From: Desulfoscipio gibsoniae DSM 7213
GTDB lineage: Bacteria > Bacillota > Desulfotomaculia > Desulfotomaculales > Desulfallaceae
Direction: 5' to 3'
DNA: 64,000 bases
NCBI RefSeq assembly: GCF_000233715.2
Contig: NC_021184.1
Location: forward strand, 4,398,001-4,462,000
Numbering within the stretch: the stretch's first letter is position 1; each line of letters starts with the position of its first letter. The translations under genes and the position numbers were made by a program. Below are positions 16,382 through 18,536 of the stretch, piece after piece. The notes under the pieces were generated by a model. It saw only the letters and a program-made list of their open reading frames with translations, ran no database searches and was not told where the DNA came from.

Positions 16382-16412
16382 AGTTAGTTTAAGAAACTTT
16401 AAGCCTGACCCC
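16382..16412 (-). repeat. Family-A repeat forming the 3' end of the SIR2-like gene
   Basis: A nearly consensus 31-bp copy; its GGGGTCAGGCTTAA supplies the final codons and stop of the gene. Confidence 0.85.
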
Positions 16413-17214
16413 TTACGCGATTGCGCAGGTCCACCATGAATTCAGTGAAATCAGCGCTGAAATCATCCGAATCCAGGCAGATGAACTTCATGCCTTTTTT
16501 ACCGTAAATCGTTTCAAATACATAGTTAGGCTTCATGGTGACCATGAAAGCCTTGCAATTAGCTTGCATGATTTTAAAAAGCTTGCTCCACATGTACCGA
16601 ATATCAAGGTCCCGAAAACTGTATCCTAAAAATAATACGGTTTTACCCAGCAGATCCGCACGCAATTTGATATCCACAGGGCCTTCCATGTCCAGCCTGT
16701 TGTGATAGTCTGTCTCACTAATTACCAGCGTCTCGTCAAGATCCAGGGTGCCGTGAAACTTGACAATCTGGGTCACGTTGTCCGGGGCAGCCAGAATATC
16801 GTCCAATGTGGCAATGGGGTAATAGGGTACCCCGTAATACCGGAAGGCCATTTCAATCATTTCATCGAAATTAGTAGTATATATTTTAGGGAAATGCATA
16901 TCCACCAGGCACTTGTGTGCCTGGGAGGCAGCAATATCAATCTTAATGGAGCGCAGGTTGCGATCAATTATTTTACTGATCCGGTTTTTACTGCCACCAT
17001 GGCAGATAATATGGTACTCGGCAATTTGCAAAAAGTCCCCGTGCAAAAACAGTATATCCGGATCAATATCCAGATCTTCAGCCACCCTAGCCATCAAAAC
17101 ATCCCATTCCGGCAGTCCCAAATTGCGTGACAGACCGGCCCCCACAAAGGGGATAATTTTCTTTTCACGGATGTCCTGGGCCAGCTCATCCATTAACTTG
17201 TCGTAACTTACCAT
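16399..17214 (-). CDS. SIR2-like (SIR2_2) NAD-binding domain protein
   Basis: A 271-residue stand-alone SIR2-fold protein. Expected NAD-site motifs are intact: GAGLS (25-29), TTNFD (113-117), the HG pair with the candidate catalytic His (154-155) and GYSFRDLD (197-204). There are no zinc-finger cysteines of classical deacetylase sirtuins. Stand-alone SIR2 domains of this type often act as NAD-depleting effectors in anti-phage systems; that role is inferred here. Its ATG overlaps the 3' end of the HAM1-like gene by 7 bases, so the two are co-translated. The C-terminal Arg-Gly-Gln-Ala is translated from a family-A repeat. Confidence 0.85.
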   Translation of the reverse strand: MVSYDKLMDELAQDIREKKIIPFVGAGLSRNLGLPEWDVLMARVAEDLDIDPDILFLHGDFLQIAEYHIICHGGSKNRISKIIDRNLRSIKIDIAASQAHKCLVDMHFPKIYTTNFDEMIEMAFRYYGVPYYPIATLDDILAAPDNVTQIVKFHGTLDLDETLVISETDYHNRLDMEGPVDIKLRADLLGKTVLFLGYSFRDLDIRYMWSKLFKIMQANCKAFMVTMKPNYVFETIYGKKGMKFICLDSDDFSADFTEFMVDLRNRVRGQA

Positions 17215-18101: not shown

Positions 18102-18147
18102 ATTAAGCCCGCCGCTGGATGCATTCGCTTCCAGCGGCGGGCTTAAT
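18102..18147 (-). terminator. Intrinsic terminator of the CooT-like gene
   Basis: An 18-bp perfect stem (ATTAAGCCCGCCGCTGGA and its complement) with a 10-base loop, followed on the minus strand by eight T residues. Confidence 0.85.
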
Positions 18148-18200: not shown

Positions 18201-18395
18201 TTATTGATCATGTTTTTCCAGGATAATGCGGTGGTCCACCAGGGCCAGTTCAGCAATTCTCGCCTTAATCTGCTTGCGGCGGCCGAAAATATCCTCCAGC
18301 ACCAGGCCGTCAGCTTCCGGAATTACTTTGTCCACCATTTCCATAATCACTTCTTCTTTGCCATCCTGACGCAGGTATGCATTTGCTTCACACAT
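18201..18395 (-). CDS. CooT-family nickel-binding protein
   Basis: A 64-residue protein starting MCEANAYLRQDGKEE, the hallmark of the CooT family; the N-terminal Met-Cys pair is the nickel site in characterised CooT. VDKVIPEADGLVLEDIFG and KARIAEL continue the family pattern. CooT assists nickel loading of carbon monoxide dehydrogenase; no CODH gene is in the window, so the client is unknown. The ATG at 18395 follows GGGAGGTGA by 5 bases. It is monocistronic with its own promoter, a structured 105-base leader and a terminator. Confidence 0.88.
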   Translation of the reverse strand: MCEANAYLRQDGKEEVIMEMVDKVIPEADGLVLEDIFGRRKQIKARIAELALVDHRIILEKHDQ

Positions 18396-18410
18396 ATAAA
18401 TCACCTCCCT

Positions 18411-18466
18411 GTAAAAGACAAAAGACCACCTCGGTTATACGCAGTTAGCGTCAAACCTCCGTGGCC
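18411..18466 (-). promoter_or_regulatory. Attenuator-like hairpin in the CooT-like leader
   Basis: The leader folds GGCCAC with GTGGTC (18461-18466 and 18424-18429) around inner GGTT/AACC and ACGC/GCGT pairs. It is followed by TTTTGTCTTTT and then the ribosome site. A smaller AGCC/GGCT hairpin lies upstream near 18482-18496. A terminator-like stem before a metal-protein start codon suggests transcriptional control. Confidence 0.6.
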
Positions 18467-18507
18467 GTTTTACGCTGCCCGAAGCCTTCCTGGCTCCATT
18501 TGTTAAA

Positions 18508-18536
18508 TTATATCCTCACTCAAACGAGCGTGTCAA
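18508..18536 (-). promoter_or_regulatory. Consensus sigma-A promoter of the CooT-like gene
   Basis: TTGACA (18531-18536) and TATAAT (18508-18513) on the minus strand, separated by exactly 17 bases; both hexamers are perfect matches. Confidence 0.85.

Follow-up and report, generated by a model that had tools for sequence, protein, structure and literature searches.

The leader of the cooT gene in Desulfoscipio gibsoniae DSM 7213 probably belongs to a nickel (or nickel/cobalt) regulon under protein-dependent transcription antitermination, exerted via two small hairpins that we call P1 and P2. Comparison among relatives shows that this predicted P1/P2 element, with a covarying P1, is conserved. 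The window analyzed here is a stretch of 64,000 nucleotides (positions 4,398,001 to 4,462,000 of NC_021184.1), and the genome as a whole is one contig of 4,855,529 bases.

The cooT leader of D. gibsoniae

The features of the leader are listed in Table 1. The original prediction, made from the sequence of the window, had a perfect TTGACA-17-TATAAT promoter driving a leader of 105 bases with two hairpins. The promoter does match the consensus at 12 of 12 bases, but its spacer is one nucleotide longer than had been stated. Two other promoter-like sites, each with 9 of 12 consensus bases, are found in 2.4 kb; as three sites are no more than shuffled sequences give (mean 3.7), it is the complete match and not the number of sites that stands out. 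The position of the promoter relative to the leader is the same in relatives. A leader of about 105 bases (about 18500-18396, minus strand) with P1 and a long hairpin is what we find, and the predicted order of a GGCCAC/GTGGTC hairpin, the tract TCTTTTGTCTTTT and the ribosome site is borne out as well (18466-18401). The earlier reading overlooked a second copy of the P1 loop, which is embedded in the terminator.

Table 1. Features of the cooT leader and gene in D. gibsoniae (window coordinates).
Feature	Position	Strand	Description
Sigma-70-type promoter	18507..18536	-	TTGACA 18536-18531, 18-nt spacer, TATAAT 18512-18507
Hairpin P1	18481..18497	-	GGAGCC-AGGAA-GGCTTC; pentaloop, C-G closing pair; covaries in sets of 14 and 22 leaders
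P1-P2 linker	18467..18480	-	Variable among relatives
Hairpin P2 (proposed antiterminator)	18454..18466	-	GGCC-ACGGA-GGTT; loop of the P1 type
Terminator hairpin GGCCAC...GTGGTC	18424..18466	-	Holds both P2 strands; predicted by folding and conservation
U-rich tract TCTTTTGTCTTTT	18413..18425	-	Sequence
Ribosome-binding site GGGAGGTGA	about 18401..18409	-	Sequence
cooT	18201..18395	-	64 aa; CooT family nickel protein, Cys2 present; PF10133, 6fan relative, AF2 model

The leader (109 nt) folds at -34.5 kcal/mol, compared with -26.8 ± 3.1 kcal/mol for shuffled sequences (z = -2.5), and 3 of 200 shuffles fold as well. The long hairpin was not listed by a simple terminator scan of this region of the window, presumably because the scan takes loops of 3-8 nucleotides only and no internal loops; folding and conservation support its role as a terminator. 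In the window leader, P2 alone has a predicted energy of -1.8 kcal/mol and the terminator one of about -19.8 kcal/mol, and P2 would therefore need an outside stabilizer.

The cooT start codon is an ATG at 18395 on the minus strand. Its product matches PF10133 (E = 1.4e-26, 93 bits against a curated cut-off of 27), as expected of the CooT-like nickel protein that had been proposed, and an NCBIfam profile search gave no family for it. A long inverted repeat directly after cooT (18102-18147, minus strand) is a possible terminator of the cooT transcript. Further downstream, the gene at 16399-17214 (minus strand) encodes a 271-aa protein with a weak match, far below the cut-off, to the Dsr2 sirtuin-type defense family. 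The same genome has a second partial CooT match (locus L002, 1501-1596), a 39-codon frame with one stop inside, which is probably a remnant.

Conservation and gene context of the P1/P2 element

A CooT match is present in 51 of the 60 genomes examined, that of the window included. In the family of the window, cooT is found in 15 of 16 genomes and the same leader in 14 of these 15, all 14 having been located via the CooT protein and not via the RNA. In the remaining genome (G004, loci L007/L133), cooT is kept, but of its leader only the promoter region and the terminator's 3' arm are left, through natural deletion or assembly error. In the alignment of the 14 leaders, the P1 stem changes and the loop plan A-N-G-R-A stays fixed, with A, G and A at loop positions 1, 3 and 5 invariant in all 14. 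P1 is followed by a variable linker, the sequence ACCACGRAGGT (GCCACGGAGGT in two leaders), a variable stretch, and a 3' part that mostly reads RACCRAGGTGGT and then T's, from which L014 and L018 deviate. The segment RRCC-ACGRA-GGYY can fold as P2, or both of its halves can pair downstream and form the terminator. Comparison thus shows P2 and the terminator, as predicted structures, to be mutually exclusive.

The structure anticipated for related leaders does covary, and it does so in P1. In the 14 leaders, 96.4% of the cells of P1 plus P2 are paired, and pairing falls to 51-53% when the partner is slid by one column. Double-change cells number 17 compared with 6.5 in shuffles, and none of 500 shuffles reaches as high; for P1 plus the terminator, 96.4% of cells are paired and double-change cells number 20 versus 8.1. 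With 22 leaders the P1 plus P2 count is 36 versus 12.8 (again 0 of 500 shuffles as high), and paired cells drop from 96% to at most 50% in the slid controls. None of these shuffle controls takes relatedness into account. Counted as pairs with any double change, covariation is no higher than in shuffles, with 5 such pairs in the 14 leaders (reached by 122 of 500) and 7 in the 22 leaders (reached by 93 of 500). Variation in P2 and the terminator is small, as every base takes part in both structures, and it is for this reason, the double constraint, that the strong evidence of covariation is that of P1.

A covariance model of P1 and P2 with the 14 leaders as seeds (R1) was used to search 113 genomes of the order. 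The seeds came out on top; the matches after them lay upstream of cooT in other families, or of cbiM, cbiQ, an ABC ATPase gene or a FlpD-like gene. A second model with 22 seeds (R3) was run over the class (the same 113 genomes), 398 genomes of the phylum and 32 chosen genomes; absence in the phylum search means little, because scoring there was limited to 13 candidates per genome and missed even the site of the window. In the genome of the window, the site before cooT is the only R3 site at E ≤ 0.05. By eye, from the places viewed and partly with knowledge of the downstream gene, we have curated 82 sites; they come from 58 genomes and 18 families, of which 6 lie outside the order. Dropped as chance matches were 41 viewed R1/R3 loci (40 distinct, L219 being the same as L056) that lie in coding sequence or have no terminator: L049, L052, L055-L059, L062, L117, L127, L130, L212-L216, L219, L221, L223-L225, L227, L230, L237, L239, L240, L242, L243, L250, L252-L255, L257-L259, L288, L291, L294, L296 and L297. 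Three others (L217, L218 and L222) look genuine, though incomplete, and are not counted among the 82.

The anatomy of the element was counted at 80 of the 82 sites, L123 and L234 being without a usable P2 plus U-run. P2 bases pair into the last 22 nucleotides before the U-run at 76 of the 80 sites, compared with 47% of shuffles, a high control. A strict P1 (at least 5 pairs and an ANGRA loop) is found at 51 of the 80 sites and in 0.9% of shuffles, the former figure being inflated since model R3 itself selects for P1; of the other 29, some have tetraloops (such as UGGA or CGGA), a hexaloop (ACUGGA) or no visible P1. The P2 loops are ACGGA (51), ACGAA (21), AUGAA (5) and AUGGA (2), with one automatic mis-pick. 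P1 hairpins with at least 4 pairs number 56 and are spread over eight ANGRA sequences, among which ATGAA (14), ACGAA (9) and AAGAA (4) have no GGA, a few of the 56 being automatic mis-picks. The spacing between P1 and P2 ranges from 3 to 79 nucleotides at 55 of these 56 sites and is -1 at one, and the linker sequence is not conserved. The automatic choice of hairpin was wrong at L287, L290 and L299 (another hairpin) and at L121 (P1), which were excluded from later computation. At L287, a second P2-like hairpin with its own terminator stands in tandem after the first unit, before an open frame of 982 codons.

Comparison also shows the set of downstream genes, which reads as a nickel/cobalt regulon. 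Sixty of the 82 sites precede cooT (24), cbiM (17), cbiQ (7) or nikA-, nikB- or nikD-like genes (12, made up of five SBP5 genes plus one fragment, five nikB-like and one nikD-like). The other targets are CobN-like (4), FmdE (2), TM1266-like (2), FlpD (2), lipoprotein (2) and DUF3842 genes (2, plus one DUF3842-cooT operon), together with single others. Profile matches support 15 of the 17 cbiM targets (L233 and L277 by their own matches, the remainder by CbiM matches in the same positions), 6 of 7 cbiQ, 4 of 5 SBP_bac_5, 4 of 5 permease, 2 of 4 CobN, both FmdE, both TM1266-like, 1 of 2 DUF3842 and 1 of 2 FlpD targets; those without profile support were named by reading the sequence. Nickel is the likely, not proven, substrate of the transporters, because the NCBIfam models of NikA, NikB, NikD and CbiM match them below the curated cut-offs, and the cbiM/cbiQ transporters may carry cobalt. 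Several targets (FmdE, TrmO, a methyltransferase, FlpD and TM1266-like) are not plainly nickel genes. One target, a small TM1266-type protein, has a marginal NikR_C match (23.7 bits, cut-off 22). By reading, the element is followed by nikM, nikN, cooT, nikQ and nikO at L286 (genome G162) and by DUF3842 and cooT at L289. At another locus of G162 (L232), two cobalamin riboswitches (RF00174; 1792-1977 and 827-1013, minus strand) flank the element and a DUF3842 gene; one of them, about 220 nucleotides upstream, may share a leader with the element.

The proposal of a structured terminating attenuator before a CooT-type gene is thus strengthened by a covarying structure and by its recurrence before nickel/cobalt uptake genes, and the search of other genomes has placed the element upstream of cooT, cbi and nik-like genes, much as had been suggested. 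The leader could also be constitutive, its conserved terminator setting a low basal level of expression and regulating nothing. The loss of most of the leader in the near relative G004, which keeps cooT, would suit such a leader, but P1, which is not part of the terminator, covaries with its loop unchanged, and across 18 families the element stands before various genes with a common theme, so that we regard a constitutive leader as very unlikely.

Candidate readers of the element

We infer, as follows, a reading protein in dimeric form, the metal that is involved and the direction in which the system responds. P1 and P2, which share the A-N-G-R-A loop with C-G closure, would be bound by a trans-acting RNA-binding protein, in the simplest case a dimer with one hairpin in each half, and linkers of such different lengths suit two separate protein contacts. 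P2 is built from the 5' half of the terminator; if it is not stabilized, the stronger terminator would win and the transcript would end before the ribosome site. A protein on P1 and P2 would block the terminator and allow expression of cooT, or elsewhere of nikM, nikQ, nikA or nikB. Since the genes import or handle nickel, binding would most likely take place when nickel is short. Between a riboswitch and a protein-controlled attenuator, the two options first named for this leader, it is the protein that we favor, given two hairpins with the same loop at very variable spacing.

The loops themselves recall CsrA/RsmA, whose consensus sites are ANGGA-type loops, closed by C-G and present in several copies. 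The C-A-N-G-G-A-G loops of the element resemble this consensus, and CsrA is encoded in 38 of the 60 genomes, including that of the window. However, the GGA is not kept, AAGAA, ATGAA and ACGAA loops being common; overlap with the terminator is the rule in the element; and a CsrA match is absent from 11 motif-bearing genomes of the 60 (G002, G008, G011, G014, which is 86% complete, G020, G031, G035, G041, G045, G047 and G053). Binding of these loops by CsrA is accordingly an extremely improbable explanation. The idea of short hairpins that serve as CsrA sites reaching the ribosome site was dropped, as the loop motif is not kept there in relatives.

A true riboswitch, an RNA that needs no protein and controls the terminator by its own binding of Ni2+, Co2+ or a metabolite, would fit the terminator-embedded layout and the metal gene set, and the purine-rich loops are strongly conserved. 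Rfam, however, finds no known aptamer in the element: no family reaches the gathering score in the whole window, two snoRNA chance matches are all that appears in the leader region at E ≤ 10, and three cobalamin riboswitches are the only families found in 20 motif loci. The NiCo (czcD) riboswitch, a four-way-junction aptamer, shares the theme of nickel and cobalt genes with the element. We have rejected that identity, with no match in the window at the gathering threshold or in the 20 loci, which agrees with the initial remark that the leader was not recognized as the known NiCo fold. Moreover, the conserved part consists of two short hairpins with loops of about 5 nucleotides only, a compact pocket is hard to see across linkers as variable in length and sequence as these, and with one loop occurring twice the layout is that of a protein target, like the ANTAR RNAs described in the excerpted text of PMC3369931. 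We therefore think a riboswitch unlikely.

A close parallel in logic is the dual-hairpin RNA of the eut, nas and ami leaders that is read by ANTAR response regulators. As set out in the same excerpts, this RNA too consists of a pair of small hairpins that share loop residues, the second being formed from terminator bases, and antitermination comes from stabilizing the latter; ANTAR targets are also reported in Desulfotomaculum species (PMC3369931). ANTAR proteins occur in 56 of the 60 genomes, that of the window included. In those excerpts, however, the loops are hexaloops with A1 and G4, and the linker has an optimal length, induction having dropped when it was altered (PMC3369931), whereas the element has pentaloops with A1, G3 and A5 and linkers of 3 to 79 nucleotides. 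In addition, an ANTAR match is absent from two motif-bearing genomes, G029 (96% complete) and G031 (99%), unlike what is expected for an RNA read by ANTAR. These differences make an ANTAR regulator a highly improbable reader.

We then consider CooT itself as the best-placed candidate reader. It is tentatively conceivable, though we would not count on it, that an apo-CooT dimer is the nickel-sensing antiterminator on its own leader and on the nik and cbi leaders, and that nickel at the dimer interface releases the RNA. cooT is the commonest gene behind the element (24 of the 82 sites), and also lies behind it within the nik operon (L286) and the DUF3842 operon (L289). CooT is present in 56 of the 58 motif genomes, a figure to which the 24 sites at cooT itself contribute. 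Among genomes of the order with a curated site before a gene other than cooT, CooT is found in 28 of 29, compared with 83 of 113 overall (P = 4e-4), and among genomes outside the class with sites in 9 of 10, compared with 107 of 383 (P = 6e-5), relatedness being ignored in both cases. CooT is absent from all seven genomes without a curated site in the same search, the seven having been deliberately chosen, and is present in two (G125 and G241) of the 14 out-of-class genomes of the phylum search without a curated site (G120 unviewed).

It is also evident that some genomes have the element and no CooT match: in G406 (98% complete), P1, P2 and a terminator precede cbiM, and in G096 (84% complete) the element precedes FmdE. 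The association between CooT and the element is weakened by two further CooT-less genomes, G057 (92% complete), with P1 and P2 before cbiM and no clear terminator, and G076 (100% complete), with P2 and a terminator upstream of cbiM; counting them, the figure for the order becomes 28 of 31 (P = 0.009, relatedness ignored). In a scan of the cbiM upstream regions of 17 CooT-less genomes of the order with one P2 pattern over 350 nucleotides (63 in one region), the pattern is absent from 21 of 25 regions; the matches are in G057, G076, G101 (P2-like) and G099 (weak). The same scan matches 2 of 6 regions from CooT-bearing genomes. Genomes that use nickel may simply carry both CooT and nik genes.

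The protein encoded in the window has the CooT fold, its AF2 model (pLDDT 90.5) matching 6fan (Z = 12.6, rmsd 0.9 over 61) and 5n76 (Z = 10.0, rmsd 2.2 over 61). In a fold search with the model for an RNA-binding relative, the clear matches are CooT chains only (Z = 9.1 to 12.6), and rows for ATP synthase epsilon, RimM and a ribosomal protein (Z ≤ 5.1) mean little. M1 and C2 are invariant in 37 of 37 CooT sequences, and the clostridial-type CooT keeps a basic stretch, mostly GRRK..KAR. In seven genomes examined, CooT is fused to a His-rich C-terminal part (L305, L306, L307, L308, L342, L343 and L344; 271 to 328 codons), and the two fusions scanned (L305 and L307) match DUF4198, which suits CooT as a metal carrier. 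To our knowledge, the only role described for CooT is that of a nickel-binding accessory protein to CO dehydrogenase, and its family, COG1532, was once annotated as a predicted RNA-binding protein. In the excerpted text of a CODH survey, CooT is listed as COG1532 and the term "RNA-binding" does not occur (PMC6344411). In such excerpts, CODH papers treat CooT as a maturation or metallochaperone protein (e.g., PMC6006190, PMC6344411), and the CooT of R. rubrum is described as a dimer with one nickel, Cys2 being involved in nickel binding (PMC6006190).

Relation to nickel regulation and biological meaning

The nickel regulon theme of the element is shared with another regulator. NikR is a repressor that acts at the level of DNA, with a nickel regulon that includes nik transporters, and differs in this from the element, which is an RNA leader. 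We have found no description of the element in the open-access literature, and Rfam 15 has no family for it. In the main text, as excerpted, of a comparative study from 2009 on the use of nickel, cobalt and B12, the strings "terminator" and "attenuat" are absent, and "riboswitch" occurs at 3 places, two on B12 riboswitches and one in a reference (PMC2667541). The element gives the impression of a nickel-shortage switch that has so far gone without a name.

If this is true, anaerobes with nickel-dependent CO dehydrogenases and hydrogenases would have an RNA-level response to nickel with its own loop code. Two A-N-G-R-A hairpins with a terminator make a searchable signature that would mark a regulon, and genes of uncertain role in this regulon (DUF3842, FmdE-like, TrmO-like and CobN-like) may belong to nickel acquisition. 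The element also allows a direct test of the role of CooT, which may be a metal carrier, an RNA-binding sensor, or both.
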